This document shows, piece after piece, positions 45,666 to 63,202 of a stretch of 64,000 nucleotides of DNA. Location of the stretch: assembly GCF_006516955.1 (NCBI RefSeq), contig NZ_VHLG01000015.1, positions 62,001 through 126,000 of the forward strand, given 5' to 3'. Made by a program: the position numbers and the translations under genes. Source of the stretch: Martelella alba. Lineage in GTDB: Bacteria > Pseudomonadota > Alphaproteobacteria > Rhizobiales > Rhizobiaceae. Positions within the stretch are counted from its first letter, which is position 1; the number at the start of each line of letters is the position of its first letter. Under the pieces are notes generated by a model. That model did no database searches and had not been told where the DNA came from. It was given only the letters and a program-made list of their open reading frames with translations.

Positions 45666-46559
45666 TTAAAAATCAGGGCGGGCCAGTTCCGCCCAGATCT
45701 GCTCGACAATGGCGCGCCGGTTTTCGCGCGAGCGATAAAGTCTGATATCAACGTCGATGCGCCAGTCACCCGACCCGGCCTCGACCAGCGTTCCGGTTGC
45801 AATTTCCGCATGCACCAGGCTTTCGGGTACCCAGACCACGCCCCAGCCGGCCGCAGCCATGGCCTTCAGCCCGACAGACATGCTGCCGACATGAACGCGG
45901 TTTTCAACCGGCAAGCGATCGGCCAGCGCGCCGGAAACCAGCTGCCCGAAAAACGAAACTTTCTGATAGGCGACCGAGTGAAAGCCGTTCTCGATCCTGT
46001 GCAACGGCGTCCCGTCAGGCGCGGGCGCACTGACGGGCAAAATGGTCTCGCTACCGAGGTGACAATATTCGAACTGACCCGGATCAAGCAGCATCGGCAC
46101 CACGGGATGCTGATAAGTCAAAAGGAAGTCCGACCGGCCGTCGACCAGCGAGACGACATTATCCTCCAGTGAGCCGGAATCGGGCAGCATCTGCGATGCA
46201 AGCTGACCAATCCTCTGATCCAGCCGGCTGAACCAGGCCGGAAAGAAGGTGAAGGATAACGTATGCAGGGCCGTCAGCGTTACCTGCCGCGCCTCTGCCA
46301 TTTCTTCCGCCTGAAAACTTTTGCGGACATCATAGAGATCCTGCAGCATCTGCGTGGCAACCGGCAGGAAACGGACCCCCGCATCTGTCAGGCGCGAGGG
46401 ATAGGTGGCGCGATCGACCAGCGTCGTCCCGAGCCAGGCTTCAAGCTGCCGGATACGACGCGAAAAGGCGGACTGGGTAACATGCCGTTCCTCCGCCGCC
46501 CGGGAGAAGTTGAGCGTCGACGCCAGCGCCAGAAAATCCTCAAGCCATTTCACTTCCAT
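45666..46559 (-). CDS. LysR-family regulator at the D-peptide locus
   Basis: A 297-residue LysR protein: HTH at 1-60 (WLEDFLALASTLNFSRAA, TQSAFSRRIRQLEAWLG), effector domain from about 90 with GSLEDNVVSLVDGRSDFLLTY and AMAAAGWGVVWVPESL. It ends 8 bp from the convergent dat gene and lies 86 bp after the D-aminopeptidase gene on the same strand, so it may be the last gene of the ABC/D-aminopeptidase operon. Probably regulates D-amino acid or D-peptide use. Confidence 0.88.
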   Translation of the reverse strand: MEVKWLEDFLALASTLNFSRAAEERHVTQSAFSRRIRQLEAWLGTTLVDRATYPSRLTDAGVRFLPVATQMLQDLYDVRKSFQAEEMAEARQVTLTALHTLSFTFFPAWFSRLDQRIGQLASQMLPDSGSLEDNVVSLVDGRSDFLLTYQHPVVPMLLDPGQFEYCHLGSETILPVSAPAPDGTPLHRIENGFHSVAYQKVSFFGQLVSGALADRLPVENRVHVGSMSVGLKAMAAAGWGVVWVPESLVHAEIATGTLVEAGSGDWRIDVDIRLYRSRENRRAIVEQIWAELARPDF

Positions 46560-46645
46560 AGCGCATTCCTGAGCGATAGCCCGCTATCCGGGCCGAAGCT
46601 GGCCTTCTGTAAGGCTTCAGGCGCATTTTGGCAATCGCGAACGAC

Positions 46646-48151
46646 TTAAGCAAGACGCCGATATTCGATCATGCGGGCACGGCTCAGCACCAGTTCCAGC
46701 CGGTTCTCACCAAGCCGGTGAAGCAGGATCCGCTTTGTCCAGGGACCATCAACAAGGGTAAACAGGAAACGCCCCTTGCCCAGCGACGTCAAAGCCATGC
46801 GCTGACGAACCGGCCCAACCCCCATGATCACCGCATCGCCATCAATCTCAAGCATTGCCCCTTCCGGTGAGAGATAGCGTCCAGACAGCGCTTTCGGCAC
46901 ACCATCATTCACAGCCGGGCGGAAGCGGCGTTCAGCATGGCCGATGACGCCGATGATATCATCGCCGTCACGTCTGAGAAGCGCGGGCGATGTCGGCGAA
47001 CGGGTTGACACAACACCGCCCTCATCGGCGTAAAGTGTATCTTCGTTATCCAGATAGGTGAGCGCCGACTTCTTAACCTCAAGCCACCACGGGCCTGTCT
47101 CGGTCACATAAATCCCGTCGGGCAGTTCGTCACTGATAACAGGCAGTGCCTCCCCGGTAAGCGCCGCCATGGTTTCCAGCGCAATCTTGTAGGCGTTAAC
47201 GTCTTCGCGATTGGCAACAACGACAATACCGGTATTGCTGCTACGATCGACCAGGAAATGGCTTTTATAGCCCGGATGCGAACCGCCATGGCCGTAAAGC
47301 ATGCGTGAACCGAGCGCCACCTGGCGGATACCGAGACCGTAGCCGGTCTCACGCCCGTCGGCAAAATGGCGTGACTTTGCCAGCTGATCGAAGAGACCGG
47401 CATGGCCCCCCGCCCCCATCATCAGAGCACCAACCCAGCGCGCCAGCGCTGTCACACTGCCGGTCATGCTGCCGGATGCGGAAATATGCAGGCCCGCGGC
47501 TGAAAGCTGCCAGCCCTTGCCGTCATACCAGTAGCCGGGCACGAGACCATCAACGGGATCATTCCAGACATCCGGTGCATCAAGACGAACACCAAGGGCT
47601 TTACCCTCATCGCGGATATAGTCGCGGAAGAATATGCCCCTGCGCTCCAACGCCGCCTCGACCAGCCGGTAGCCGGTATTGGAATAGGAAATTTCCGCGC
47701 CGGCGGGAAAATTCAGCCGCGACATCCTGAACAGGAATTCAAGCAGGGGACCGGATTTGGTTTCCGTAAAAACAGACAGGCCCAGAAGGGTCAGGCATTC
47801 TCGCACATCCGGCAGGCCACCGGTCATGTCGAGCGCCTGTCCCACCGTCACGTCGGAAAGTGGCGGCTGCAACTCGGGCAGATGGCGCCATAGCGGGTCT
47901 TCCAGCGCGATGACATCCCTATGGGCCAACACCAGAGCGGCGAAGGCATGTTTGGTGACAGAGGCATAGCGGACGACGCTTTCTTCCGTGAACGGCGCCC
48001 TGGTCGAGAGACTTTCCAGACCACCTGCGGTGATCACACGTGGACCGGACGCATCGAAAACGATGACTGCACCACCCGGCTCATCAGCGCCCCAGCCCGC
48101 TGAAAATCCCCTGGCTGCCTTTTCCGCCGCATTCCAGTCCAACACTGCCAT
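46646..48151 (-). CDS. dap: D-aminopeptidase (S12 penicillin-binding fold)
   Basis: A 501-residue serine hydrolase. Active-site Ser64-x-x-Lys67 (SVTK), Tyr156-Ser-Asn158 and His288 in HGGSHPG; these are almost the same positions as in the Ochrobactrum D-aminopeptidase (recalled as Ser62, Lys65, Tyr153, His287 in about 520 residues). The catalytic domain spans about 1-330 and two beta-barrel-like C-terminal domains follow. It frees N-terminal D-residues such as D-Ala from peptides and amides. No signal peptide. ATG at 48151 has AAAGGA upstream; the longer frame to 48376 runs into the ATPase gene. It ends the peptide importer operon. Confidence 0.88.
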   Translation of the reverse strand: MAVLDWNAAEKAARGFSAGWGADEPGGAVIVFDASGPRVITAGGLESLSTRAPFTEESVVRYASVTKHAFAALVLAHRDVIALEDPLWRHLPELQPPLSDVTVGQALDMTGGLPDVRECLTLLGLSVFTETKSGPLLEFLFRMSRLNFPAGAEISYSNTGYRLVEAALERRGIFFRDYIRDEGKALGVRLDAPDVWNDPVDGLVPGYWYDGKGWQLSAAGLHISASGSMTGSVTALARWVGALMMGAGGHAGLFDQLAKSRHFADGRETGYGLGIRQVALGSRMLYGHGGSHPGYKSHFLVDRSSNTGIVVVANREDVNAYKIALETMAALTGEALPVISDELPDGIYVTETGPWWLEVKKSALTYLDNEDTLYADEGGVVSTRSPTSPALLRRDGDDIIGVIGHAERRFRPAVNDGVPKALSGRYLSPEGAMLEIDGDAVIMGVGPVRQRMALTSLGKGRFLFTLVDGPWTKRILLHRLGENRLELVLSRARMIEYRRLA

Positions 48152-48182
48152 GTCCTTTATCCTGCTATTGCATGAGCCCGTT

Positions 48183-48944
48183 TCAGGGCAATATCTCCGT
48201 CTCCGGCTCTTCAAGCTCAATGCTGAGCGCCCGCAATTCCTTTGTGTGCGGGTGCGAAACATTGCCGTGACGCAATTTCTCCGCCGTAACCTGTTCCACC
48301 ATCTCACCGCCAAGCATGACGCCGACATCCGCGCACATATGGGCAACGACCGCCAGGTTATGACTAACCATAACAAAGGTGAGATTGTGTTCGCGGCGCA
48401 GCGCCACGAGAAGATTCAGGATTTCCGCCTGTACCGAGACATCGAGGGCAGAGGTCGGTTCATCAAGCAGCAGCACCTCAGGCTCGGCAATCAGGGCTCG
48501 GGCAATCGCCACGCGCTGGCGCTGACCGCCGGAAAGCTGATGGGGAAAGCGAAACCGGACCGATTGCGGCAGGGCGACATCATCGAGCGCATTGGCGATG
48601 CGCGCGTCAATCCGGTCCATGCCATGAACCAGCGGCAGTTCGCTCAGGATGCGATCAATCGTCTGGCGCGGATGCAGCGAGCCGTAAGGGTCCTGAAACA
48701 CCATTTGTACCTTGCGGAAAAAGGCGCGGTCGCGCTGCGCCCCGACGGCATTGCCGCCAAAGGAAATTCGCCCCTGCCAGTCGTGATTAAGGCCAGCCAT
48801 GGCCCGCAAGACCGTCGATTTGCCCGAGCCGCTTTCACCGACTATGCCGAAACTGCCGCCAGCCGGCACATGGAAGGAGACCCCTTTCACCACTTCACGG
48901 CCGGAAAAGGCAATGCGCAGGTTGTCGATATCAATGTCGATCAT
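48183..48944 (-). CDS. Peptide-type ABC transporter ATPase (DppF-like)
   Basis: A 253-residue ATPase, shorter than usual because it lacks the C-terminal cysteine extension. Walker [10 protein letters not shown]-loop [12 protein letters not shown], signature [15 protein letters not shown], Walker [12 protein letters not shown]; the switch position reads MVSHN, with Asn in place of the more common Asp after His. The ATG at 48944 overlaps the previous stop (ATGA) with GGAG upstream. Works with the next ATPase and the permeases of this operon. Confidence 0.92.
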
Positions 48945-49771
48945 TTCAGCCACTCCGGATCGCGCTGAAGCACGGGCAGTTCGTCGCGCGGATGCGTGAG
49001 CGACGGCATGCAGTTCAACAGCCCTTTCGTGTAGGGATGTTTCGCCCGGGCAAGTTCGGATGCTTCAAGCTCCTCGACCACGTGGCCGGCATACATGACC
49101 ATGACGCGGTCGCAGAAATGCGACACCAGCGACAGGTCATGGCTGATCATGATCAGCCCCATGCCACGCTCAGAGACAAGCCGGTCGATCAGCCGCATGA
49201 TTTCCGCCTGGACGGTGGCATCCAGCGCCGAGGTCGGTTCGTCGGCAATCAGAAGTTCCGGATCTGGCGCCAGCATCATGGCGATCATGACGCGCTGGCC
49301 CATACCGCCGGAAACCTCATGCGGATAAGAAGCCGCCACTTCGCGCGGATTGCGGATCTGCACCTTGTCGAGCAGATCGATCGCCGCCTCGCGCGCTTCA
49401 CGACGGCTGCCACCCTTGTGGAAACGCCAGCTTTCGGCCACCTGGGAACCGATGGATTTCACCGGATTAAGCGAATATTTCGGATCCTGCAGAATGAACC
49501 CGGCCCGTTTGCCGCGGATCTGGCGCATGCCGCGCTCATTGGCCCTGAGGATATCGATGCCGTCGAAATTGATGGCATCGGCGTCCACCTTTGCCTGTGG
49601 CGGCAGAAGTTTCAGCAGCGCCCGCGCGGTCAGGCTCTTGCCGGAGCCGGACTCACCGACGATGCCAAGCTTCTCGCGACCGAGATGCAGCGAAACGCCC
49701 TTGACCGCCTCGGAAATACCACCGGACCGCGTCGGAAACCCGATCCTGAGATTTTCAATATTCACCAGCAC
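48941..49771 (-). CDS. Peptide-type ABC transporter ATPase (DppD-like)
   Basis: A 276-residue ATPase: Walker [10 protein letters not shown]-loop [27 protein letters not shown] signature, Walker [25 protein letters not shown] start with GGGAGA upstream, 2 nt after the permease stop. The C-terminus is short and lacks the cysteine motif, like its partner. Confidence 0.92.
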
Positions 49772-50674: not shown

Positions 50675-51688
50675 TCAGCGAACCCGTGGATCGAACAGGC
50701 GGTAGAGAAGATCGGCCAGAAGATTGAGCCCGACATAGATGACACCGATGAGCAGCGTCGCGCCCACAACCGGGTTCATGTCGGCGTTTAGAAGCGCCGT
50801 GGTCAGATACTGGCCGAGGCCGGGCCAGGCAAACACCGTCTCGGTGACGACAGCACCTTCCAGCAGTCCGGCATAGGTGAGCGCCAGCACGGTGACCAGC
50901 TGCACCGCGACCGTCGGGAAGGCATGCGACCAGATAACCGAGCGAAGCGGCAACCCCTTGGCACGGGCGGTAATGACGAATTCACCTTTGAGCGCGTCGA
51001 TCATGAAAGCGCGTGTCATACGGGCGATATAGGCCATCGAGAAATAGGCAAGAATGCAGACCGGCTGCGTCAGATGCGCAACGGCGTCCCAGAAGGCACC
51101 GGTATCGCCGGCAAGCAGCGAATCGATCGTCAGGAGACCGGTTTTGACCGGAACCATGCCATCATAGATGATGCCCTGACGGCCCGGACCGGGGGTGAGC
51201 CCCAGAGCCTTGTAGAAGACGATCAACGAAATCAACGCCAGCAGGAAGACCGGAATGGAATGACCGGCAAAGCAGACAATGCGGATGACCTGATCGGTGA
51301 CGGAGCCCTGACGCACGGCAGCCCAAACACCGAGCGGAATACCGATAATCATCGACAGGATGAGCGCATAGGTCGCCAGTTCGAAGGTTGCCGGGAAATA
51401 ATGGCCGATGTCGTAGGTGACCGGATTTTTGGTCAGGATCGACATGCCGAGATCACCATGCAGCAGCTGCCAGATATAATCGGCGAACTGCACCGGAAGG
51501 GGCTTGTCCAGCCCCATGGCGATCCGGGTCTGCTCGACCACGGATTGCGGTGCGTTGTCGCCAACGGCGGCAATGACCGGATCGACCGGCATGACCCGGC
51601 CGATCAGGAAGGTAACGACCGTCAGCCCGAACAGCGTCACGAGGACGCTGCCCAGGGTGCCGGAAAAGCCCTTCAGAAAACCCTTCAC
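50675..51688 (-). CDS. Peptide-type ABC transporter permease (DppB-like)
   Basis: A 337-residue permease with the family outline: MPVDPVIAAVGDNAPQ, LLHGDLGMSILT, FVITARAKGLPLRSVIWSHA coupling loop, ETVFAWPGLGQYL, end DPRVR. The first extracytoplasmic motif reads MPVDPV instead of PGDPA. GTG start overlaps the SBP stop (GTGA). Second gene of the operon SBP-B-C-D-F-dap. Confidence 0.92.
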   Translation of the reverse strand: MKGFLKGFSGTLGSVLVTLFGLTVVTFLIGRVMPVDPVIAAVGDNAPQSVVEQTRIAMGLDKPLPVQFADYIWQLLHGDLGMSILTKNPVTYDIGHYFPATFELATYALILSMIIGIPLGVWAAVRQGSVTDQVIRIVCFAGHSIPVFLLALISLIVFYKALGLTPGPGRQGIIYDGMVPVKTGLLTIDSLLAGDTGAFWDAVAHLTQPVCILAYFSMAYIARMTRAFMIDALKGEFVITARAKGLPLRSVIWSHAFPTVAVQLVTVLALTYAGLLEGAVVTETVFAWPGLGQYLTTALLNADMNPVVGATLLIGVIYVGLNLLADLLYRLFDPRVR

Positions 51689-53280
51689 GACTTGGTGGTC
51701 TCCTCATAGCTATTCGAGGAGGAGAAGACCTGAAGGCGGAAGCCGTCGATACCGGTGCGGCAAACGGCCGTATCGGTCTTCTGGAACATGAAGGCGAAGG
51801 GGCTGTTATCCATGTAGTCCTTCTGCAGGGCTTCATAGAGTTCCAGACGCTTTGCCGGGTCCTTCTCGTCACGCGCGGCCTTGGCGCGCGCGGCGAAATC
51901 GGCATTCTGGAAATGCGAACGCCAGATGAACGGCCGGTCCTTGGCGTCATCGGCATTGTCTTCATTGATGCAGAAGACTTCCGCATTCGAGTTCGGATCG
52001 AAATAATCCGTCCCCCAGGACGACATCGCCATTTCGTGCTGGCGGGCACGCATCTTGGTCAGAACCTGACGGTTCTCACCGGCCATGAGGTTTACCTTGA
52101 TGCCGATTTCGGCAAGGCTTGCCTGAACCGCCTGGGCGATATCCGGATAGGGCTGGTTCGAATAGTGATCGAGGGTGATCTCGAAACCATCGGCAAGTCC
52201 GGCTTCAGCCATCAGCGCCTTGGCCTTGTCGATATCCTTGTGGAACGGCGTATCGGTGACAGCGCCAGGAATGCCCGAAGGCTCGAAGCTCTGATGCACC
52301 GCATAGGTCATCGGCACGATATTCTTCTGCATGCCGTCATAGTCCAGCGCCCATTTGATCGCCTGCCAGACTTCGGGCTTGGCCAGATATTCATTGTTCT
52401 GGTTGAGCGAGATCAGCATCAGCGATGCGATTTCCTGGCGGATCGTATTGAAGCCGTCAACGCCTTCAACCTGCTTGAGCTGTTCTGTCGTCAGGTTGCG
52501 GGCAATATCGGCATCGCCCTTCTGCAGCATCAAAAGCTGCGACGACGGATCGGCGACGTGGCGCAGCACGATGCGCTGGAGATTGCCCTTGTACGGGCCA
52601 TGCGGGTTGACCGTCAGGCCAATGGTCTCGCTCGGCTTCCAGGCCTGCAGCACGAAGGGGCCGGAGCCGGCACTGTTCTTGTTGAGCCAGGTCTTGCCCA
52701 TGTCATCGCCTTCGACATGCGCTTCAACGACAGCCTTTTCGACGATCGCGCCGACGCTGGCCGACAAGCAGTAGAGCAGGAAGGAAATCGCAGTCGGCTC
52801 GGCCGTGGTCAGGGTGACGGTCTTGTCATCGACGGCAACGATAGCCTGATCGACATTTTCAGGCGTGAAGCCGAACTGGCCGATGATGAAAGCGGCACCG
52901 CCATTGATCTTGATGGCGCGCTGCAGCGAATAGGCGACGTCTTCGGCCGTGACCGGATTGCCCGATGCAAAGCTTGCCTCAGCCAGCTTGAAGGTGAACA
53001 CCTTGCCGCTGTCATCAACGCTCCAGCTTGCAGCCAGAACCGGCTGAATTTTCGACGGATCGTCCGGATCGGGAACAATCAGATTTTCATAGAGATTGGT
53101 GCAGACTTCACCGGCCAGCGCCTCGTAATTGGCATGCGGATCAAGGGTGGTGATGTTGTCGAGCTGCTGGGCGACGACCAGAATATCCTTCGGCGTATCG
53201 GCGAAAGCCTTGGTAAGGTCGAGGTAAGATAAAACAGGCACAACGGCGCTGCCGATCAGGAGTTGTCGTCTGGAAATCAT
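51685..53280 (-). CDS. Solute-binding protein, family 5, with Tat signal
   Basis: A 531-residue periplasmic binding protein. The N-terminus MISRRQLLIG has the twin-arginine motif followed by a moderate hydrophobic stretch and cleavage near KAFA, so export of the folded protein by Tat is likely. Then LDNITTLDPHANYEALAG, family-5 cores, and a polar C-terminus. First gene of the peptide importer operon; GGGAA precedes the ATG. With a D-aminopeptidase in the operon the ligand is probably a D-residue-containing peptide or amide (inference). Confidence 0.9.
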   Translation of the reverse strand: MISRRQLLIGSAVVPVLSYLDLTKAFADTPKDILVVAQQLDNITTLDPHANYEALAGEVCTNLYENLIVPDPDDPSKIQPVLAASWSVDDSGKVFTFKLAEASFASGNPVTAEDVAYSLQRAIKINGGAAFIIGQFGFTPENVDQAIVAVDDKTVTLTTAEPTAISFLLYCLSASVGAIVEKAVVEAHVEGDDMGKTWLNKNSAGSGPFVLQAWKPSETIGLTVNPHGPYKGNLQRIVLRHVADPSSQLLMLQKGDADIARNLTTEQLKQVEGVDGFNTIRQEIASLMLISLNQNNEYLAKPEVWQAIKWALDYDGMQKNIVPMTYAVHQSFEPSGIPGAVTDTPFHKDIDKAKALMAEAGLADGFEITLDHYSNQPYPDIAQAVQASLAEIGIKVNLMAGENRQVLTKMRARQHEMAMSSWGTDYFDPNSNAEVFCINEDNADDAKDRPFIWRSHFQNADFAARAKAARDEKDPAKRLELYEALQKDYMDNSPFAFMFQKTDTAVCRTGIDGFRLQVFSSSNSYEETTKS

Positions 53281-53525
53281 CTGTCTTGTTCCCTTTCAAT
53301 CCGGTATTGCCGGTTGCAAAAATGCGGCCCAAACTGGCTGCATATTTTTTTGGCAAACGGTCAGACATGCTGTTATCAGGGCAAGACAGGACTGACCAAT
53401 TCCGTTTTTTGCAGGGCCTATGCAGGCTTTGCATTTGTTCTCCACCAAGCCGGAGCCCATAAAGGAACATCCTCCGTGCACTTCGCATTCCCGGCATTTC
53501 CGGCAAAACTCTCAGGACAATATCC
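53281..53525. promoter_or_regulatory. Divergent promoter region (peptide importer / M19 dipeptidase)
   Basis: A 245 bp gap between divergent starts. AT-rich tract with a run of T near 53345. No clear operator. Shared control of importer and dipeptidase is likely from the arrangement only. Confidence 0.4.
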
Positions 53526-54566
53526 ATGCCTCCCTTCTCCGATACGCCTGTTTTCGACGGCCACAATGACGTCCTTCTGCGCTTGCGCCGCGCAGGCAAG
53601 CCGGATCCGGCGAAAGCCTTTCTGGATGGGGAAAATGAAGGCCACATCGACCTGCCGCGGGCCCGCGAGGGCGGTTTTGCCGGCGGGCTTTGCGCGCTCT
53701 ATATCCCGTCCCCGAGCTATGAGAAGGATGCCAATGGCAACGTCCCGGCACCCGCCCAACCCGATGCGCTGAACGAAACCATGGCCATGGCGCGGCTACT
53801 GTTTGAGATCGAACGGCGATCGGCAGGTGATGTGACGGTCTGTCGCACGGCAGCCGATATCCGCAATGCGATTGCCAAAGGTTCCTTTGCTGCTGTTTTC
53901 CACATCGAAGGCGCCGAAGCGATCGGCGCGGACCTCGATGCGCTCTACGTTCTGCATCAGGCGGGGCTGCGCACGCTTGGCCCGGTCTGGAGCCGTCCCA
54001 ACATCTTCGCCTTCGGCGTACCCTTCCGCTTTCCCTCAAGCCCCGATATTGGTCCGGGCCTCACCGATACCGGCAAGGCGCTGATCCGCGCCTGCAACGC
54101 GCTGAAGATCATGGTCGACCTGTCGCATATGAATGAGAAGGGCTTCTGGGATATCGCCGCAATTTCCGACGCGCCGCTGGTTGCGTCCCACTCCAATGTT
54201 CAGGCGCTGTGCCAGCACTCGCGCAATGCCACCGACCGCCAGCTTGATGCGATCGGCGAAACCAACGGGCTGATCGGCATTAATTTCGGCGTTCTCTTCC
54301 TCAACAAGGATGGTGTCAAGGATCCCTCGATCGGCGTTGAACCGCTGATCGACCATATCGATTATGTCGCCAACCGGATTGGCATTGACCATATCGCCCT
54401 CGGTTCGGATTTCGACGGCACCACGATTGCCACAGAGCTGAAGGATTGCCGTGGCGTGCGTCTGATCGTCAAAGCCCTGAAAGCCCGCGGCTATGATGAT
54501 GCCGCGATCGCCAAGGTTACCCATGAGAACTGGATTCGCGTTCTCGGCGCGACATGGGGCGCCTAA
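53526..54566 (+). CDS. Membrane-dipeptidase-type zinc dipeptidase (M19)
   Basis: A 346-residue binuclear zinc dipeptidase of the renal dipeptidase family, without signal peptide. Metal residues by pattern: H13 and D15 (DGHND), bridging E128 (FHIEGAEAI), H201 (DLSHMN), H222 (ASHSN) and D295 (GSDFDG). M19 enzymes cut dipeptides and tolerate a D-residue at the C-terminal position, which fits the D-amino acid theme. First gene of a pair with the enolase-superfamily gene; AGGA precedes the ATG. Divergent from the importer operon. Confidence 0.92.
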   Translation: MPPFSDTPVFDGHNDVLLRLRRAGKPDPAKAFLDGENEGHIDLPRAREGGFAGGLCALYIPSPSYEKDANGNVPAPAQPDALNETMAMARLLFEIERRSAGDVTVCRTAADIRNAIAKGSFAAVFHIEGAEAIGADLDALYVLHQAGLRTLGPVWSRPNIFAFGVPFRFPSSPDIGPGLTDTGKALIRACNALKIMVDLSHMNEKGFWDIAAISDAPLVASHSNVQALCQHSRNATDRQLDAIGETNGLIGINFGVLFLNKDGVKDPSIGVEPLIDHIDYVANRIGIDHIALGSDFDGTTIATELKDCRGVRLIVKALKARGYDDAAIAKVTHENWIRVLGATWGA

Positions 54567-54656
54567 GCTGGCTCCGACCTGCCTTGGCAGCCCGCAGAGG
54601 CTGCTCTAGAAAGGTGGAGACGCGCCGCCGCGCCCGGGATTTGCGAGGCCTCCCCG

Positions 54657-55781
54657 ATGCAGCACAAAATTAGAAAACTGGACGTTCATCTTGTTTCTAC
54701 GCCGATACGCGGCGGCTTTTCCGATGCCACGCGCAAAGTCGAAACGATCGGCTTCCTGATCGTGCGGGTGACGACTGATCAGGGGCTGGAAGGCCTTGGC
54801 GTGACCTATCACGAGGTCGGCGGCGAGGCAACGGCCGAGCTGATAAGGCGCAGCATGGCGCCACGGCTGATCGGCCGCGATCCCTTTGATACGGAGGTGA
54901 TCTGGAGTGAATTCTTCCATTATCTGCGCGGCGTCGGCCGCAAGGGACTGACCTATTGCGCGCTCAGCGCCATCGATATCGCACTCTGGGATCTGAAAGG
55001 CAAAATCGTCGATCTGCCGATCTACAGACTTATCGGCGGCGGTCGCACAAAAGTTCCCGTCTATGCCAGCGGCGGCTGGACCTCCTATTCCGACGATGAA
55101 TTGCTGGAAGAGGTGACCGGCATGGTCGGGCGCGGATTTCGCGCCGTGAAATTCAAGGTCGGCAGTGACGGCGGCACCAATCCGCGCCGCGACGCCGAGC
55201 GCGTGCGCAAGGTCCGCGAGGCGGTCGGCCCGGATATCGCATTGATGGTCGATGCCAACAATGCCTTTGACGCGGCAACGGCCGTGCAACTGGCCAACCG
55301 CATCCGCGACTATGACATCACGCTGTTTGAAGAACCCGTCTTCGCTGATGACATGCCCGGCCTTCAGAGGTTCAAACGCGGCACGGATATCCCGCTGGCA
55401 ACAGGCGAGCACGAATATCTGAAGTTCGGCGTTCGCGACCTGCTCCTCCATCAAGCAGCGGACATCATTCAGGTCGATGGCACGCGGGCCGGCGGTTACA
55501 CCGAGATGATCAAATGCGCGGCACTCACCCAGGCCTGGAATGTGAGATTTGCACCACATGCGATGGAAAACATCCATCTGCAGCTGGCCGCAGCAATTCC
55601 TAATACGCTGTTTCTCGAGCGCCTGCTTATGTTTGAGGATCTGACCGCCAATGTCTTCGACAATGCACCCGTGCCGATCGATGGTTTCATGCATGTCCCC
55701 GATCTTCCGGGGCTCGGCCTGACGCTCAATATGGACTTCATCCGGGCCCACGATGAAACCAGCCCGGCCTCGCATATGTGA
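54657..55781 (+). CDS. Enolase-superfamily protein, mandelate racemase subgroup
   Basis: A 374-residue (beta/alpha)7beta barrel enzyme that abstracts a proton alpha to a carboxylate. Catalytic base K165/K167 in VKFKVG, metal ligands D199 (VDANN), E225 (FEEP) and E251 (TGEHE), and the His-Asp dyad H301 (APHAMEN) with D274 (IQVDGTRAGG), plus E321. The His-Asp dyad places it with mandelate racemase and acid-sugar dehydratases, not with the dipeptide epimerases that have a second Lys. It could racemise or dehydrate a hydroxy or sugar acid. 90 bp after the dipeptidase; terminator follows. Confidence 0.9.
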   Translation: MQHKIRKLDVHLVSTPIRGGFSDATRKVETIGFLIVRVTTDQGLEGLGVTYHEVGGEATAELIRRSMAPRLIGRDPFDTEVIWSEFFHYLRGVGRKGLTYCALSAIDIALWDLKGKIVDLPIYRLIGGGRTKVPVYASGGWTSYSDDELLEEVTGMVGRGFRAVKFKVGSDGGTNPRRDAERVRKVREAVGPDIALMVDANNAFDAATAVQLANRIRDYDITLFEEPVFADDMPGLQRFKRGTDIPLATGEHEYLKFGVRDLLLHQAADIIQVDGTRAGGYTEMIKCAALTQAWNVRFAPHAMENIHLQLAAAIPNTLFLERLLMFEDLTANVFDNAPVPIDGFMHVPDLPGLGLTLNMDFIRAHDETSPASHM

Positions 55782-55908: not shown

Positions 55909-57453
55909 TCAGCGCTGGACGCGGGCGATATCACCAACGACACGGACGCGGACACGGCGTGCGCCGCCCGGCAGATAGGCGATCGGAATATCCTCGGCAT
56001 CCAGAACCTTGATCGTGTCATCTTTCGCACCGGAGGCTACGGCACGCTCGCAGGCCAGACGTCTGGCCTCATCAAGGGCTTCATCGCGGCTCATGTCGGA
56101 GAAAACCTGATCAACCTCGCCGGAAACCTGCGCCATGGCGGCGCCGAGCGCATTGGCGACACCGGCATGCTCCACCTTGACGACCTCACTGATGCCCCTG
56201 ATCGTTTCAGGGATCAGGAAGGCACCGCCGCCTACGGCAATGAGCTTCACCCCATCCGAAGATGTCTTCATCCGGTCAACGCCATCCTCGACCATATGGC
56301 CGATCCGCGCCAGCGTGTCGGCGACAAAACGCTTGTCGAGATGGCCCACGCGATCGCGGTCACCGATTTCGACAAGACCGGCGGCAACGGCGATATCGGT
56401 TGTCGTCAACGTATCACCACCGAAGACCAGCGCCTTTTCGGTAATGCGATAGCCGACCGAGCGTGGGCCGATCGTGCCGCTTTCCGGATCGATGATCGTG
56501 CCGCCGCCGAGTGCCATGGGAAGAAGATCAGGCATGCGGAACAATGTGCGCACACCGCCGACCTCGACAACATTGTTGGCCTCGCGCGGGAAACCGCCAA
56601 CCAGGCAACCGATATCGCTGGTGGTGCCGCCAACATCGACGACCATGGCTTCACTCAACCCGGTCAGGCTTGCCGCCCCGCGCATGGAATTGGTCGGGCC
56701 GGAGGCAAAGCTATAGACCGGGTTGGCGGCCGCCACCGCCGCCAGCACAACGGTGCCGTCATTCTGGGTCAGGTAGAAGGGCGCATCGATACCAGCCTCC
56801 TTCAACGCCACGCCGAAAGCGCTGACAGTATTCTGACCAAGCCCCTGAAGGGCGGCATTCAGCAGCGTCACATTCTCACGCTCCAGCATGCCGATCCGAC
56901 CGAGTGTATTGGAAAGCGTAATGCGTGCGTCTGGAATTACACTGCGGACGATCTCGGCGGCAAGGCGCTCGCATTCGTCGGTCAACGGCGAGAACAAGGC
57001 GGTAATACCGATTGCGGTGATACCGGCATCGCGGATCTTCATCGCGGCGTCACGCACGGCATCGCCATCAAACGGCACCAGTTCGCAGCCGTCATATTCA
57101 TGACCGCCCGCCACCATGAAGGACAGCGGGTTGACCTCGTTCCTGAGATCGGCAGGCCAGTCGATCATCGGCGGCAGCGATGCACCGGCGGGCAGTGCAA
57201 TGCGGATCGCACCAACGCGCTCAAGCCGGGCCCGTTCGACCACGGCATTGGTGAAATGCGTAGTACCGATCATCACCGCATCCACGGGTGCAGCGCCGGC
57301 CGCTTCACCGGCCATGACCGCACTGATGGCATCAACGACCCCTTTCATGACATCGGCGGTCGTCGGAAACTTGACGGCGGCCAGAACCGCATCGCCATCA
57401 ATCAGGACAGCATCCGTATTGGTGCCGCCAACGTCAATTCCTATGCGTTTCAT
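55909..57453 (-). CDS. Hydantoinase/oxoprolinase-family protein (HyuA-like)
   Basis: A 514-residue ASKHA-fold protein related to the ATP-dependent 5-oxoprolinase/N-methylhydantoinase A subunit. Phosphate loops RIGIDVGGTNTDAVL at the N-terminus and VVDVGGTTSDIG near residue 270, with GTTHFTNAVVER (about 85). It is shorter than HyuA of two-subunit hydantoinases (about 650-700 residues) and has no HyuB gene beside it, so it is a stand-alone member. It overlaps the DUF917 stop (ATGA), a pairing that recurs in bacteria. Likely an ATP-dependent cyclic amide or related reaction; substrate unknown. Confidence 0.87.
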   Translation of the reverse strand: MKRIGIDVGGTNTDAVLIDGDAVLAAVKFPTTADVMKGVVDAISAVMAGEAAGAAPVDAVMIGTTHFTNAVVERARLERVGAIRIALPAGASLPPMIDWPADLRNEVNPLSFMVAGGHEYDGCELVPFDGDAVRDAAMKIRDAGITAIGITALFSPLTDECERLAAEIVRSVIPDARITLSNTLGRIGMLERENVTLLNAALQGLGQNTVSAFGVALKEAGIDAPFYLTQNDGTVVLAAVAAANPVYSFASGPTNSMRGAASLTGLSEAMVVDVGGTTSDIGCLVGGFPREANNVVEVGGVRTLFRMPDLLPMALGGGTIIDPESGTIGPRSVGYRITEKALVFGGDTLTTTDIAVAAGLVEIGDRDRVGHLDKRFVADTLARIGHMVEDGVDRMKTSSDGVKLIAVGGGAFLIPETIRGISEVVKVEHAGVANALGAAMAQVSGEVDQVFSDMSRDEALDEARRLACERAVASGAKDDTIKVLDAEDIPIAYLPGGARRVRVRVVGDIARVQR

Positions 57454-58529
57454 TCTGCAAAAACCGATTTATAGTCAATATCATAACCAAAGGCCCGCGG
57501 CCCCACATGGGCAATGCCCTTTTCTGTGGTGAGGACGGCTGGCGCGGGCAGTGCAATGGCGGTAACACGCTGGCCGTAGCGGACGGTTTCTGTGCCGATC
57601 GCCTCGCCGGAAACGCTGTCGAGAAGGCAGATCAGATCAGGCGTCATGGCGATGGGGGTGCCATCACGGAAAGCAACCGCCCACTCGTTCTGGAAGGCGA
57701 GTTCGAGGCTGGCACCGCTATCTTCATCAAGGCCGTCGATCTTCGCGACACCGCGCAAAAAGCCGCCGGTGGTGGTGCGGTCAATATCGCTGACCTTGCC
57801 CCGGAACAGCACCTTGCCGCCTTCATGGTCGATGACGGCCGCGACCGGATCCGCATGCGCCCGGCGCGCATCCTCAACCGCCCGCCCCAGCGCGATGGCC
57901 TTGGTCACGGTGTGAAGAACACCCCATTCCTTGACTTCCTTGCCGGTGCGTGGCGCTTTGCAGGTTGCAGCCGTAGAGCCGACCTCAGTGCAGATCTTGC
58001 GGGAAATCCGCTCCATCCATTTCCAGGACGCGGCCTTGGCGACGATCGCCTCGTTCTCCCGGCAATCAACCAGCGTCAGCGGATACATGGTCAGATCGCC
58101 GATGGCAAAACTGGTCATCTGCGCTTCGGGATAGGCGCGACCCATGGCATCGGCATCAAGAACCGGAATATCGAGCATGGCACCAGCGAGGAACGGCGAC
58201 AGCGCGTTGCCGCCGCCAATTTCGACGCTCATCACCGCACGGAACTTGCGGCCGATATAGGCTTCCATCAGTTGAACCGCCCGGGCGAGATGGGCCGGAT
58301 CGACCAGCCGTTCCTGGCCCACAAGCGGCGCCCCCATTTTCGAGACCACGGCAACGGCATCGTCGTCGCCAAGCGCCAACGGGTCGAGAAGCTGGCAACG
58401 CTTGCCATCCTCATACAGTTTCTTGAGATTAAGCTTGGCGAGATAGGGACTGCCACCACCACCCGTGCCGAGAATCCAGGCGCCGGTTGCCAGGGCATCA
58501 ATCTCTCCCTGTTCAAATTCACGGATCAT
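57450..58529 (-). CDS. DUF917-family protein
   Basis: A 359-residue protein of the DUF917 family, function unproven. N-terminal LATGAWILGTGGGGSPYLA carries the glycine-rich GTGGGG signature; later conserved blocks are ALSPFLAGAMLDIPVLDADAMGRAYPE, EVGSTAATCKAPRTG and DLICLLDSVSGEAIGTE. First gene of a two-gene unit with the HyuA-like gene, often found together. GGAGGT precedes the ATG. Divergent from the AroM-LuxR gene, so probably part of the pathway that this regulator controls. Confidence 0.86.
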   Translation of the reverse strand: MIREFEQGEIDALATGAWILGTGGGGSPYLAKLNLKKLYEDGKRCQLLDPLALGDDDAVAVVSKMGAPLVGQERLVDPAHLARAVQLMEAYIGRKFRAVMSVEIGGGNALSPFLAGAMLDIPVLDADAMGRAYPEAQMTSFAIGDLTMYPLTLVDCRENEAIVAKAASWKWMERISRKICTEVGSTAATCKAPRTGKEVKEWGVLHTVTKAIALGRAVEDARRAHADPVAAVIDHEGGKVLFRGKVSDIDRTTTGGFLRGVAKIDGLDEDSGASLELAFQNEWAVAFRDGTPIAMTPDLICLLDSVSGEAIGTETVRYGQRVTAIALPAPAVLTTEKGIAHVGPRAFGYDIDYKSVFAE

Positions 58530-58668
58530 TCTTACCTCCGAAGATTGGACAGAAGCCTAACTTCTGAGTAGTTTTACGCCTATAAGGGATTGCACCTATT
58601 CGGGCACTGCCTATTTTTAAGGCACGCTAAAAGGCGTCAATCGAAACCGTTCACGGTGGGATTCTTTC
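58530..58668. promoter_or_regulatory. Divergent DUF917/aroM-luxR promoter region with shared motifs
   Basis: A 139 bp gap. TAGTTTTAC at 58569-58577 is the reverse complement of GTAAAACTA at 59704-59712, and AAGGCGTCA at 58631-58639 recurs exactly at 59730-59738, both in the next promoter. Two shared exact 9-mers in two short regions suggest a common regulator, most simply the LuxR-type protein encoded here. Confidence 0.45.
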
Positions 58669-59619
58669 TTGCAGACTTCGGACACTTCAGACCATGACGG
58701 TCATTCCACAGAAGATACGCAACGCATCATGTTCGTCAGCGTCGGACAGTCGCCCCGCACAGAACTGATCGAAAGCGTCATTCGCGATCTCGGCATGAGA
58801 ATCGAAGCGCTGGAAGTCGGTGCGCTGGACGGCCTTACCGACACGGAAATCGATGATTTTCGGCCGCTTGCAGGCGAACCGCGCATCGTCTCATCGCTGC
58901 GAAACGGCGACAGCATTGTCCTGTCGAAGCCGCGGATTGCCGACCGGATGGCACGGATTGTCGCCGGTTTCAGGCCGGGCGAATATGATCTTGTCGTCAT
59001 TCTCACGACAGGCCTGTTCCGCGATTTCCAGAGCACCTGCCCGACGGTGAATACCCAGCGCGCCATGGAATCAACGGTCATCTCACTGGCCTCGCAGGGC
59101 GATGCGCTGGGCCTGATCCAGCCGCTTGAAGACCAGGTCGATGAACTTGACATTCCGGCGCTTGGCCTGTTCCAGATCACCGCCAGCTATGCCCGCACGG
59201 GGGACCGCAATTCGCTCGCAAGCGCGCTTCTCGACCTTGCGGAATGTGACATTATCGTCCTCAATTCAGTGGGTTTTGATGAACAGGACCGCCAGACCGT
59301 GGCGAAGGTCAGCGGCAAGCCGGTCATTCTGGCGCGCCGGCTTGTGGCTGGCGCTATCCGACTGCTTATCAGTCGTGCCCACTCCCCGGCACCACCGGAC
59401 GCATCGCCGGATTTTTCCAAGAAGCTGATGCGCCTGACCCCGCGGGAAAAACAGGTTCTGTCACTGGTGGTCGAGGGGCTGTCAAACAAGGCGGTTGCCC
59501 GACAGCTCGGCATCAGCCCGAAGACGGTGGAAATCCATCGCGCCAATGTCATGAACAAGATGGAAACCCCTTCCATCGGCGCACTGATCCGCCTTGTGGT
59601 ATCGACCGGCTACTTCTGA
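58669..59619 (+). CDS. AroM domain fused to a LuxR-type DNA-binding domain
   Basis: A 316-residue two-domain protein. Residues 20-235 are an AroM domain (MFVSVGQSPRTELIESVI, GALDGLTDTEID, YDLVVILTTGLF, LGLIQPLEDQVDEL, CDIIVLNSVGFDEQ, GKPVILARRLVAGAIRLL). Residues 253-316 are a LuxR/GerE helix-turn-helix (LTPREKQVLSLVVEGLSNKAVARQLGISPKTVEIHRANVMNKM). Where the neighbouring AroM has cysteines (C104, C191), this protein has T113 and S200, so the domain probably senses rather than catalyses. No receiver or autoinducer domain. Start is TTG with GGTGGGA upstream; an ATG at 58729 is possible. I infer a one-component regulator of the DUF917/HyuA and AroM/importer units. Confidence 0.88.
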   Translation: MQTSDTSDHDGHSTEDTQRIMFVSVGQSPRTELIESVIRDLGMRIEALEVGALDGLTDTEIDDFRPLAGEPRIVSSLRNGDSIVLSKPRIADRMARIVAGFRPGEYDLVVILTTGLFRDFQSTCPTVNTQRAMESTVISLASQGDALGLIQPLEDQVDELDIPALGLFQITASYARTGDRNSLASALLDLAECDIIVLNSVGFDEQDRQTVAKVSGKPVILARRLVAGAIRLLISRAHSPAPPDASPDFSKKLMRLTPREKQVLSLVVEGLSNKAVARQLGISPKTVEIHRANVMNKMETPSIGALIRLVVSTGYF

Positions 59620-59795
59620 CTTCAACGAACCGTTTGCCCAACATGCAGGCGGAAAAACCCGAAAAAGCCCGATTCTTGGGCGCCGTCTTTTTCACGCAAA
59701 ACAGTAAAACTAGGGAACTTCCCTGATAGAAGGCGTCACCGCCATGACGTTAGGCTGATCTCCGTTCGCGTTTGAAAAAGATCGGGGAAACGACA
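59620..59795 (+). promoter_or_regulatory. aroM-importer operon promoter region with palindrome
   Basis: A 176 bp gap. Contains GTAAAACTA (59704-59712) joined to a perfect palindrome AGGGAA-C-TTCCCT (59712-59724), then AAGGCGTCA (59730-59738). The two 9-mers are shared with the divergent DUF917/aroM-luxR region. GGGGAAA precedes the GTG start of aroM. Confidence 0.45.
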
Positions 59796-60473
59796 GTGAA
59801 GACAGCGCGCCTTGCATTCGTCACCATAGGCCAGACGCCACGCAGCGATCTCGTTCCGGAGATGATGGCCGAGATCACCGCCGGGCGTGATGATTGCCCG
59901 CCTGAAGCCATCGAATTCGGCGTACTGGACGGGCTGGAAGGCGCGGCCCTCGACGCCATGCGCGCAATGCCCGGCGAACATTCCTTCGCCACGCGACTGC
60001 GCGACGGAACCGAAATTGTCACGTCACAGGCCCGCACGGAAGAACGGCTGAACCAGCTTCTCAAAGAAATCGATACGCAGAAATTCGACCTGATCGTTCT
60101 GCTTTGCACCGGCACGAAGATCGAACCACTGTCCCACACACTCGTTATCGAGGCTCAGCGGGTCGTCGACGCGACCGTTGAGGCTCTCGCGCAGTCGGCC
60201 CGCCATCTCGGCGTCATTCTGCCGCTTGAACGCCAGGTTGCCGATTTTGCCGAACGACATGTCTTCTCGCGCGACGCACAGGCTGTGGCCGCCTCGCCCT
60301 ATGCCGGAGGCGACATGGCGGCGCAGGCGGCAAAGCTTGAAGGCTGCGACCTGATCGTCATGCATTGCATGGGCTACTCCGCAGCCATGCTGAAAGAGGT
60401 CCGTGAAACGACAGCCACATCCGTGCTGCTGTCACGCCGGATTGTTGCAGGCGTCGTTCGCCAAATGATTTAA
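59796..60473 (+). CDS. aroM: AroM-family protein, stand-alone
   Basis: A 225-residue protein, exactly the length of E. coli AroM, whose function is unknown. It keeps the AroM blocks (AFVTIGQTPRSDLVPEM, GVLDGLEG, LGVILPLERQVADFAE). Cysteines C104 (VLLCTGT) and C191 (MHCMGYS) lie at the ends of equivalent strands of the two halves, where Asp/Glu-racemase-like folds place their two catalytic cysteines; E. coli AroM keeps only the second. GTG start with GGGGAAA upstream is preferred to an in-frame TTG at 59772. First gene of an operon with a peptide-type importer (50 nt gap). A racemase-like role is inference. Confidence 0.87.
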   Translation: MKTARLAFVTIGQTPRSDLVPEMMAEITAGRDDCPPEAIEFGVLDGLEGAALDAMRAMPGEHSFATRLRDGTEIVTSQARTEERLNQLLKEIDTQKFDLIVLLCTGTKIEPLSHTLVIEAQRVVDATVEALAQSARHLGVILPLERQVADFAERHVFSRDAQAVAASPYAGGDMAAQAAKLEGCDLIVMHCMGYSAAMLKEVRETTATSVLLSRRIVAGVVRQMI

Positions 60474-60523: not shown

Positions 60524-62128
60524 ATGAAAAGACGCAGTTTGTTAAAGGGCACGGCCCTTGGCCTGATTGCCGCCACACTTGCCGGCGGCGATTTCCTGAT
60601 CAGCCCCGCCGAGGCGTTTGAGCGCACCGATGCTGGCAATGTCATCGTTTTCGGCGGCCGCCAGGCAATCCCGGTTCTCGATCCGCATATCCGTTATGAC
60701 TGGTCGACGCGCATGATCCAGCAGGCGGTCTATGACGCACTGGTCAAATATGAGGGCGATCCGGCCGAGGTGAAGCCTTGGCTCGCGGAAAGCTGGGATG
60801 TCAGCGAAGATGGCAAGACCTGGACCTTCCATCTGGTCAAGGATGCCAAATTCCACAATGGCGACCCGGTAACGGCTGAAGCTGTTCAATATTCCTTCGT
60901 GCGCGGCCTGGAACTCAACAAGGGCGTCGCCTGGATGCTCAAGGACTTCCTGAAGCCGGAAGGCGTCCGCGTTGTTGATGACTACACGATCGCCTTCGAT
61001 CTCGATAAGCCCTATTCGCCTTTCCTGTCCTTCCTGCCCTGGTGGTATGTCGTCAATCCCGCCCAGGTGAAAGAACATGAGGTTGACGGCGATTATGGCC
61101 AGAAGTGGCTGACCGATAACGAAGCCGGGTCCGGCCCCTTCACGCTTGGCCGCTGGGAACCCAATGTTCTCTACGAGGTCAATTCCGTCGAAGACTACTG
61201 GAAGGGCTGGCCGCAGGGCGAAAACCGCCCCGCCGGCGTCATCTACCGCATCATCCGCGAACCCGCAGCCCAGAAGGCAGCACTGCAGCGCGGCGAGGCC
61301 GATATTGTCGAGGGCCTGACCTCGGACGATTACGTCCAGATCGCCAATGCCCAGGGCATTGTCGTCGAAGACCACAAGGGCATGACCACCTTCGGCATCA
61401 AGTTCAACAACCAGAAGGGTCCGACCGCTGATATCAACCTGCGCAAGGCGATCGCCTATGCCCTGGATTATGATGCGCTGGTGCAGATCTATAACGGCGC
61501 GGCAACGCTTGAGACGAGCCCGCTGCCCGGTGCGATGAAGGGCCATATCGATGTGCCCGGCATTCCGCGCCAGGATCTCGCCAAGGCCAAGGAATATCTG
61601 GCCAAATCGGCCTATCCCGATGGCGGCATCACCCTTGATTACGTCCATGTGGCCGGGCTCGAAGAAGCGCGCCGCATCGGCCTTGTGCTGCTCGACAATC
61701 TCAAGGCGCTCAATATCGACGTCAACATCAAGCCGGAACAGTGGCCGAACATGGTCGCCGCCGGTGCCTCGATCGACACCACGCCCGACATGACCTCGAT
61801 CTATGCAACGCCGATCTCGACCGATCCCGATTCCGTCGCCTACATGTACCACAAGGACAGCTGGGACAAGTATTACGGCATTGCCCATTATGAGAACCCG
61901 GAAGTCTGGGCGATGATCGACGAGGCCCGGGCAGAAACCGACTGGGACAAGCGCGCCGCCCTTTATGCCAAGATCCAGACGCAGATCGTCGCCGATCAGC
62001 CGGAAGTCTTCGGCATGCTGCAGAACCGTCGCTGGGCGCGACGCGACTATCTGCAGGGCTTTACCTTCAGCCCGGTCCGCTTTACCGGCGAAGTCGATCT
62101 TTATCCGCTGTGGATCAAGACCGAATAG
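60524..62128 (+). CDS. Solute-binding protein, family 5, with Tat signal
   Basis: A 534-residue periplasmic binding protein. N-terminus MKRRSLLKGTALGLIAATLAG has a twin-arginine motif (RRSLLK) with cleavage near SPAEA. Family motifs follow: QAIPVLDPHIRYDWSTRMIQQ, LAESWDVSEDGKTWTFHLVKDAKFHNGDPVTAE. It is the binding component for the following permeases and is in one operon with aroM. GAGGGA precedes the ATG. Confidence 0.92.
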   Translation: MKRRSLLKGTALGLIAATLAGGDFLISPAEAFERTDAGNVIVFGGRQAIPVLDPHIRYDWSTRMIQQAVYDALVKYEGDPAEVKPWLAESWDVSEDGKTWTFHLVKDAKFHNGDPVTAEAVQYSFVRGLELNKGVAWMLKDFLKPEGVRVVDDYTIAFDLDKPYSPFLSFLPWWYVVNPAQVKEHEVDGDYGQKWLTDNEAGSGPFTLGRWEPNVLYEVNSVEDYWKGWPQGENRPAGVIYRIIREPAAQKAALQRGEADIVEGLTSDDYVQIANAQGIVVEDHKGMTTFGIKFNNQKGPTADINLRKAIAYALDYDALVQIYNGAATLETSPLPGAMKGHIDVPGIPRQDLAKAKEYLAKSAYPDGGITLDYVHVAGLEEARRIGLVLLDNLKALNIDVNIKPEQWPNMVAAGASIDTTPDMTSIYATPISTDPDSVAYMYHKDSWDKYYGIAHYENPEVWAMIDEARAETDWDKRAALYAKIQTQIVADQPEVFGMLQNRRWARRDYLQGFTFSPVRFTGEVDLYPLWIKTE

Positions 62129-62176: not shown

Positions 62177-63202
62177 ATGCCCCGGACGACCATGATCTCC
62201 TTTCTGCTCCGCAAAATCACTGCACTCGTCGGCACGATGATCGGCATCGCGATGCTGACTTTCGTGATCACCAATATCGCGCCGGGTGATCCGGCACGCC
62301 TGGTGGCCGGCCCCAATGCCACGCCGGATATGGTGGAAACCATCCGTGTGGAAAACGGGCTCGACAAGCCGTTGGCAGAGCAGTTCGTCATCTATATGCG
62401 CAATCTCGCCACCGGTGATCTTGGCACATCGATCGTGTCCACCCGTCCGGTGCTCGATGAATTGCTGCGCTATGCACCGGCCACCATTGAACTGGTTCTG
62501 GTTTCGATGACGCTTGGTATTGTCGTCGGCGTACCGCTCGGCATGCTGTCGGCGGTCTACAAGGATAGCCCCTTCGACCATGCGGTGCGGATCTTCTCGA
62601 TTTCCGGCGTGGCGCTGCCCGCCTTCTGGTTCGGCATTCTGCTGCAGCTGTTCTTCTCCGTCGATCTTGCCTGGCTGCCGGTCTCCGGCCGGCTTCCACT
62701 TGTCACCCGCCCCCCCGATACCGTAACGGGACTGCTGCTCGTCGACAGTTTGCTTCAGGGACAATGGTCGACCTTCGGCAAGGCCTTCTCGCATATCATT
62801 CTGCCCGCCGTGGTTTTGTCTTTTCCCTGCCTTGCCTCCATTCTCCGGGTCAATCGCGCTGAAATGATCGAGGTGCTGCAGTCGGATTATATCGTTGCCG
62901 CGCGCGCCCATGGCATCGCCAGAACGCGGGTGATCGCCGTTTATGCGCTGAAAAACGCCCTGCTGCCGACCCTTGCCATCATCGGCCTGCGTTTCGGCTG
63001 GATGCTGGGTTCGACCGTGCTGGTTGAAACCGTCTTCGACTGGCCGGGCATTGGCCTTTACGCTGTCTCCTCGGCGCTTTCGTCCGATTTCAAGCCCGTG
63101 ATTGGCGTCACGCTGCTGATCGGCTTCTTCTTCATCGTCACCAACATGCTTGTCGATCTCGCCTATGTCTGGATCGACCCGCGCCTGAGGAAAAATCGAT
63201 GA
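62177..63202 (+). CDS. Peptide-type ABC transporter permease (DppB-like)
   Basis: A 341-residue permease: first helix at about 10-30, APGDPARLVAGPNATPDMV, LATGDLGTSIV, coupling loop YIVAARAHGIARTRVIAVYAL, ETVFDWPGIGLYA, end DPRLRKNR. Translation probably controlled by the preceding stem-loop. The stop overlaps the next permease start (ATGA). Confidence 0.93.
   Translation: MPRTTMISFLLRKITALVGTMIGIAMLTFVITNIAPGDPARLVAGPNATPDMVETIRVENGLDKPLAEQFVIYMRNLATGDLGTSIVSTRPVLDELLRYAPATIELVLVSMTLGIVVGVPLGMLSAVYKDSPFDHAVRIFSISGVALPAFWFGILLQLFFSVDLAWLPVSGRLPLVTRPPDTVTGLLLVDSLLQGQWSTFGKAFSHIILPAVVLSFPCLASILRVNRAEMIEVLQSDYIVAARAHGIARTRVIAVYALKNALLPTLAIIGLRFGWMLGSTVLVETVFDWPGIGLYAVSSALSSDFKPVIGVTLLIGFFFIVTNMLVDLAYVWIDPRLRKNR

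Follow-up and report, generated by a model that had tools for sequence, protein, structure and literature searches.

A stretch of 64,000 nucleotides of Martelella alba DNA, referred to here as the window, carries two neighbouring genes for proteins of the AroM family, one of which is joined to a DNA-binding domain. These are the two AroM matches in the genome of this bacterium. The arrangement raises the question of whether an enzyme-like domain has been turned into the sensor of a transcriptional regulator and, if so, which genes and what kind of compound such a regulator would connect. As far as the main text of PMC11055893 goes, AroM and DUF917, which is encoded next to the fusion, had no proven function at the date of that paper. 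That AroM resembles hydantoin and Glu/Asp racemases had already been described there, as had a type of gene cluster enriched in AroM and DUF917, and the words 'LuxR' and 'regulator' are absent from this text. In the open-licence PMC literature, no paper on an AroM–LuxR protein was found.

The AroM–LuxR Fusion and Its Locus

The positions of the fusion, its neighbours and the predicted regulatory sites are collected in Table 1. Both domains of the fusion lie in one reading frame, as the preliminary description had proposed, and both are matched well above the Pfam cut-offs. The N-terminal part reaches 134.9 bits against PF07302 (cut-off 23.8), covering profile positions 3–215 of 219, and the C-terminus reaches 75 bits against PF00196 (cut-off 23.5). 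The NCBIfam FixJ model also covers residues 239–314, at a score below the model cut-off. At a Pfam E-value of 0.001, no receiver (Response_reg), PAS or autoinducer domain was detected in the protein, whose N-terminus is filled by AroM. The TTG start is backed by the N-terminus MQ[TI]SD, common to this protein and that of a Martelella relative (L003).

Table 1. Features of the AroM–LuxR locus, in positions of the window.
Feature	Position	Strand	Basis or remark
HyuA (hydantoinase/oxoprolinase A, short form), adjoining DUF917 on the same strand	55909..57453	-	Pfam
DUF917 (S-methyl-thiohydantoin-desulfurase-like), divergent from the fusion, predicted target	57450..58529	-	Pfam PF06032/PF20906
Predicted -10 (TAGGCT), DUF917–HyuA promoter, 22 nt from O1	58554..58559	-	conserved spacing
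Predicted operator O1, ATAAGGGATTGCACCTAT, 18-bp dyad, divergent region between DUF917 and AroM–LuxR	58582..58599	.	PWM 21.4 bits
AroM–LuxR fusion gene	58669..59619	+	ORF, TTG start, 316 aa
AroM domain of the fusion, racemase-like putative sensor, residues 22–230	58732..59358	+	Pfam PF07302, 3.8e-39
Thr113 codon, opposite the first catalytic-type Cys (C104) of stand-alone AroM	59005..59007	+	alignment
Ser200 codon, opposite the second catalytic-type Cys (C191) of stand-alone AroM	59266..59268	+	alignment
LuxR/GerE (NarL/FixJ-type) HTH, residues 255–309 of 316	59431..59595	+	Pfam PF00196, 3.6e-21
Weak predicted operator O2, CTAGGGAACTTCCCTGAT, 5' of the stand-alone AroM/ABC-transporter operon	59710..59727	.	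PWM 11.6 bits
Predicted -10 (TAGGCT), AroM–transporter promoter, 23 nt from O2	59751..59756	+	conserved spacing
Stand-alone AroM, 225 aa from GTG	59796..60473	+	Pfam 2.1e-51; model pLDDT 88.1
Cys104 codon of stand-alone AroM	60105..60107	+	alignment
Cys191 codon of stand-alone AroM	60366..60368	+	alignment
SBP_bac_5 peptide-type substrate-binding protein, 3' of AroM, predicted target operon	60524..62128	+	Pfam
DppB-type ABC permease of the SBP_bac_5 operon, followed by DppC and ATPase	62177..63202	+	Pfam; neighbourhood

The stand-alone AroM scores 174.9 bits against PF07302, counted from a longer start. Its likely translation start is the GTG at 59796, a choice favoured by the predicted transcription start near 59763; the upstream TTG at 59772 is less likely, because it lies about 9 nt from that point. 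When the protein is numbered from the GTG, alignment reproduces the residue pairing given earlier for the two proteins, with C104 opposite T113 and C191 opposite S200. On the other side of the fusion, DUF917 scores under the NCBIfam cut-offs of the named desulfurases.

Racemase-like Fold of the AroM Domain

The likeness of AroM to the two-lobed alpha/beta fold of Asp/Glu/hydantoin racemases, which had been put forward from the sequence, is borne out by structure prediction of both proteins with Foldseek comparison and by profile–profile alignment; an unrelated fold did not emerge. The model of the stand-alone AroM, built from four sequences, has the hydantoin racemase 2eq5 as its top PDB match (E 4e-6, TM 0.55–0.62, rmsd about 5), and further matches include glutamate racemases, maleate isomerase and aspartate racemase. 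A profile of 31 stand-alone proteins aligns with one of 22 racemases at a probability of 82.5% (E 9.8e-6) over 131 columns. In this alignment, C104 and C191 fall on the two conserved cysteines of the racemases, each of them present in 21 of the 22. These two residues are taken here to be the catalytic pair.

The model of the fusion, from 4 sequences as well, is weaker (pLDDT 69.6, pTM 0.57). The structural matches of this low-confidence model are FixJ/NarL regulators, the EL222 HTH, arylmalonate decarboxylase and hydantoin racemase. The profile of fusion-only AroM domains gives no signal against the racemases (probability 0.8%), and its contrast with the value for the stand-alone proteins means that the link to the racemases depends on these stand-alone proteins and their cysteine motifs. 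By sequence alone, no racemase was retrieved from the PDB: a search with the single protein returned no match, and a profile search returned two weak unrelated ones (E 1.1 and 1.4). In short, the two catalytic-type cysteines of the racemase superfamily are present in the stand-alone AroM and missing in the fusion.

Loss of the Cysteines Across the Family

Distinct AroM domains were gathered from genome searches and plasmid records, 44 with a LuxR part (one of them partial) and 66 without. Both sets are collections rather than censuses, one of the searches having contributed 30 loci and 12 candidate fusions, and the LuxR part in relatives was called by an HMM built here, not by Pfam. A cysteine at either position occurs in none of the 44 fusions, while both are present in 57 of the 66 stand-alone proteins and the second in 64. 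Written as first/second position, the fusions carry S/S (25), M/S (14), S/A (2), T/S (2) and A/S (1), and the stand-alone proteins carry C/C (57), S/C (7), S/S (1) and A/A (1). The rule was first visible in 21 fusions and 32 stand-alone proteins and was then tested on 23 and 34 more, nearly all of which came from two families in which fusions had been found before. The preliminary description had restricted the loss of both cysteines to the copy that carries a DNA-binding domain. The association of their loss with the LuxR part has stood firm, for no fusion that keeps a cysteine was found; the restriction has to be relaxed, as two of the 66 stand-alone proteins lack both residues.

The remainder of the domain allows the loss to be viewed in proportion. 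Seven columns show at least 95% conservation among 64 stand-alone proteins, a list from which L017 and L099 were excluded although both are counted among the 66. Four of these columns (G12, P15, L44 and G139) are retained in all 43 full-length fusions, the partial fusion L186 belonging to the 44 and not to the 43, and P143 is retained in 38 of 43. P168 is found in 64/64 stand-alone proteins versus 7/43 full-length fusions, and the C191 column holds cysteine in 0/43. Judged from these alignments, the loss in the fusions is selective, yet not limited to cysteine. The proposed change from enzyme to sensor can be followed here residue by residue, with the second cysteine vanishing while most other near-invariant positions stay. 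A partial match in genome G1379 was kept unclassified.

This pattern bears on whether the fused domain could still be an enzyme. A bifunctional trigger enzyme, in which the AroM domain remains catalytic through other residues and the HTH provides a second function, would agree with the conservation of much of the framework. Arylmalonate decarboxylase, which has the racemase fold, works with one cysteine, and the PDB titles of the arylmalonate decarboxylase matches name Gly74 and Cys188. However, both positions are lost in 44/44 fusions, so that even one-cysteine chemistry is gone, and this explanation appears very improbable.

Two groups of stand-alone proteins depart from the common pattern. 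Seven members of a family that is enterobacterial by inference (f199; L057–L060 and L062–L064) have serine at the first position, with the second cysteine intact; L056 and L061, which also belong to f199, do not share this pattern. The seven may not be two-base racemases, because their one cysteine recalls arylmalonate decarboxylase. Two divergent, low-scoring AroM-like proteins, in L017/L079 (L079:9716-10400, G035) and L099:3026-4057 (G615:C13) have no cysteine at the aligned columns, where the motifs LWSYG (L079) and VWAYG (L099) are seen; in L099, a cysteine adjoins the first column, and the gene lies beside amino-acid-type ABC permease frames. These proteins possibly form a separate branch of the AroM family.

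Distribution and History of the Fusions

Full-length fusion matches occur in 9 of 297 genomes of the window's family. A sample of its class (385 genomes) contains 15 AroM-positive genomes, with a fusion in 9 of these 15, and a sample of the phylum contains AroM in 14 of 398 genomes, fused only in the window's genome. AroM was detected in 1 of 274 genomes of the class of G967, with no fusion there, and all 44 distinct fusions come from the window's class. Eleven plasmid records matched, and the three that were read all hold a fusion. In the viral contigs searched for AroM, no relative was found among 13 pattern matches.

A tree was built from 52 AroM domains, with L017 excluded. In it, a branch with 100/98 support separates the 21 fusions of the first set from all the other domains; the root is unfixed, and long branches are flagged. 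Since the 21 fusions form one clade, the fusion and the cysteine loss may have been one historical event. The simplest reading of the tree is a single fusion with both cysteines lost on its stem, although a single origin is not proven. Such a clade might also be expected from a chance fusion or a decaying gene, in which the cysteines disappeared under relaxed selection. Against decay, the frames are open in 44 distinct sequences whose AroM domains diverge down to 23% pairwise identity, the framework positions are retained, and the DNA dyad described below is conserved. A dead gene has next to no probability under these observations and was rejected as ruled out by recurrence.

Conserved Gene Neighbourhoods

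DUF917 and HyuA are present in 19 of the 20 fusion loci that hold the 21 fusions; the exception, L086, has a long HyuA-type frame and no DUF917. Part of a transporter of the Dpp/SBP_bac_5 kind is labelled in 20/20 loci, though only an ATPase in L074. All neighbour labels in relatives were assigned by similarity to annotated references. Of 8 loci that lack a fusion, 5 (L089–L092 and L095) likewise have AroM close to DUF917–HyuA.

It had been suggested that the fusion senses what the intact AroM handles. This suggestion is weakened, as no stand-alone AroM was found in 6 of 36 fusion genomes (G168, G265, G398, G1303, G1322 and the 91% complete G1338), which means that the sensor can do without it. 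The ligand is therefore more safely tied to the pathway of DUF917, HyuA and the transporter.

Individual loci hold additional genes. For instance, an Asp/Glu racemase and an OPT transporter are found in L070, an S51 peptidase and DUF1177 in L076, and a luciferase-like monooxygenase with an FMN reductase in L087. In the window, the region 51685–55781, to the left of HyuA, encodes a second peptide-type binding protein, an M19 dipeptidase and a mandelate-racemase-like enzyme, and the dyad matrix described below gives no match of at least 10 bits in it.

A Candidate Operator

An 18-bp dyad, ATAvGk-N6-mCbTAT, is likely the operator of AroM–LuxR, judging by its conservation upstream of the fusions. 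The matrix was trained on 18 sites picked by eye from regions upstream of fusions, and the pairs at dyad positions 2, 3 and 5 are complementary in all 18. In leave-one-out scans of whole loci on both strands (30,000–49,000 positions), the site left out ranked first in 12 of 18 cases and second to sixth in the other 6. The dyad lies 5' of 18 of the 21 first-set fusions; for those of L071, L076 and L087, the matrix scan found no site directly upstream. Among 18 later loci outside the training set, from families related to it, a site stands 5' of 21/21 fusions, and the nineteenth later locus (L186) has no upstream sequence.

In the window, O1 is the best site of the whole 64 kb and has leave-one-out rank 1 of 39764 positions. 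O2 was outside the training set and is about as strong as a lone match at window 37304 (11.5 bits), and relatives carry stronger sites at the same place. With a symmetric matrix, 15 non-training sites were found 5' of AroM, transporter or other target genes; they are spread over 13 loci and include that at window 59710. Besides the match at 37304, others elsewhere in fusion loci are found in L073 (10.0 bits) and L086 (17.8 bits inside a transporter frame, and 11.9 bits). Nine AroM loci without a fusion contain no match of at least 10 bits, where a shuffled background predicts about 5.6; this difference means that the background overestimates chance, and no exact p-value can be taken from it.

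In the M. alba genome, a degenerate form of the dyad pattern occurs in 2 places and its reversed control in 36. The second match (C33:25776, L100:3777) lies upstream of a frame resembling a urea/amide-type ABC binding protein. It was set aside as a further operator, no TANNNT being present at 22–23 nt on the side read. In L076, no dyad was found in the 400 nt that precede the AroM domain of the fusion at 5947. Repeated AGTGCGAAGCACC-like elements occur there instead and are possibly a different binding site of that lineage.

Promoter Geometry and the Sign of Control

The dyad stands at a nearly constant distance from a -10-like element. Toward DUF917, TANNNT begins 22–23 nt from the dyad edge in 13 of 16 loci and TA in 16/16, the maximum of 1000 shuffles being 5. 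Toward the second targets, TANNNT is found at 22–23 nt in 11 of 17 cases (shuffle maximum 4), a count in which one dyad was taken in both directions and one came from the training set. Toward the fusion itself, no TANNNT peak was found, the best spacing occurring in 3 of 16 loci, against a shuffle maximum of 6. Of the 21 cases in the later set, 17 show TA at 22–23 nt. Strict TANNNT is present in 6 of these 17, and the remaining 11 are limited to TA (mostly TAGACAT or TAAAGCC); neither is seen in 4 cases. If the -10 element is placed at -12 to -7, the dyad covers roughly -53 to -35, and its centre lies about 44 bp upstream of the predicted start. This is the position of a class II activator. 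The predicted DUF917 transcription start falls near 58547, and GGAGG precedes the DUF917 ATG. The DNA-binding regulator envisaged in the preliminary description gains support from the conserved dyad and its near-fixed promoter spacing.

The opposite sign of control was also considered. If the protein were a ligand-controlled repressor, the dyad would overlap the DUF917 promoter or follow it, would also cover the leader of the regulator gene itself, and the ligand would release the protein. Two observations would suit it. In one family of relatives, only about 12–16 nt separate the end of the dyad from the predicted start codon of the regulator itself, an arrangement suggestive of self-repression, and a consensus scan toward DUF917 finds one promoter-like site (58640-58613, minus strand, 9/12 matches) that ends upstream of O1. 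If this site were real, O1 would lie downstream of a promoter in a repressor-compatible position, and the sign of control would change. However, the site is at chance level (1 versus 0.6 expected in shuffles) and was not seen by eye in the closest relative, L080. The spacing at both kinds of target promoter keeps the class II activator register, and NarL/FixJ-type HTH proteins are mostly activators. Repression as the main mode of control is unlikely on this evidence.

Proposed Mechanism

AroM–LuxR is probably a one-component activator whose sensor is a catalytically dead, racemase-like domain and whose regulon comprises DUF917/HyuA and the peptide-type transporter. The fusion, the absence of the cysteines, the dyad with its spacing and the neighbours are established by sequence comparison; ligand binding, the preference for activation over repression, the nature of the ligand and the oligomeric state are inferred. 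The AroM domain of the fusion would keep the racemase-like framework without the two acid/base-type cysteines, and their loss implies that it should bind a small molecule without turnover. This ligand might be the imported compound itself or a molecule formed early in the DUF917/HyuA pathway, candidates being hydantoin-like, lactam-like or cyclic-dipeptide-like rings. Its binding would set a dimer of the NarL/FixJ-type HTH on the 18-bp dyad, at the place of the -35 box. Bound AroM–LuxR would then recruit RNA polymerase to two promoters, that of DUF917–HyuA and that of the Dpp-type ABC transporter, with or without AroM in front. In the family with the dyad near its own start codon, the regulator may also repress itself.

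A more elaborate version makes the two AroM proteins a matched pair. The two-cysteine AroM would isomerise an imported ring compound, and its disarmed paralogue, with the pocket kept, would hold the compound unturned, perhaps in either mirror form, and report it to the pathway promoters; AroM activity or mixed dimers would tune or end the signal. This version is speculative and rather doubtful as a whole. If true, it would describe a transcription-factor family made by disarming a racemase. For the activator reading in general, a regulator with a proposed operator and target promoters would offer a direct handle on the compound that AroM, DUF917 and HyuA handle.

Relation to Known Systems

The fusion combines features of several protein families. 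Its N-terminal part belongs by score to the AroM family (PF07302; E. coli aroM), whose stand-alone members differ in having no DNA-binding domain and, with two exceptions, in keeping the second cysteine. With the Asp/Glu/hydantoin racemase superfamily (PF01177; 2eq5, MurI, maleate isomerase and arylmalonate decarboxylase), the predicted AroM model shares the fold and the aligned position of both cysteines, whereas the fusion lacks the cysteines and has an HTH. With NarL/FixJ/LuxR-type regulators (FixJ, EL222, TraR, LuxR), it shares the GerE HTH and structural matches to FixJ and the EL222 HTH. Its predicted 18-bp dyad around -44 also resembles lux and tra boxes in geometry as generally described. 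It differs from these regulators in its sensor, which is AroM instead of a receiver, PAS or autoinducer domain.

Enzyme-derived one-component regulators are already known, among them MocR/GabR, ROK repressors, NadR and BirA, in which, as in the fusion, an enzyme fold that serves as ligand sensor is joined to an HTH. To our knowledge, none of them has a racemase/AroM fold. AroM–LuxR is unusual among such regulators in how plainly its disarming can be read, namely from two lost catalytic-type cysteines. The sensor domain of PrpR, a metabolite sensor of alpha/beta fold, is another point of comparison: both models have 2pju as a structural neighbour, and the fusion model has 2q5c as well, at lower TM-scores of about 0.24–0.45. 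PrpR is a sigma-54 activator, and its DNA-binding domain is unrelated to the HTH of the fusion.

Rearranged and Duplicated Loci

Two loci display other arrangements of the same elements. The rearranged locus L087 (G398) has dyads at 3425 and 7230. Sites there occupy the interval separating SBP from DUF917 and the position immediately behind the fusion. A dyad precedes the luciferase-like monooxygenase/FMN reductase pair, in a genome in which no stand-alone AroM was found. The locus L075 (G342) contains two AroM–LuxR paralogues, at 5890 and 13316, each with its own dyad variant; one faces the AroM–transporter operon and the other faces DUF917–HyuA.
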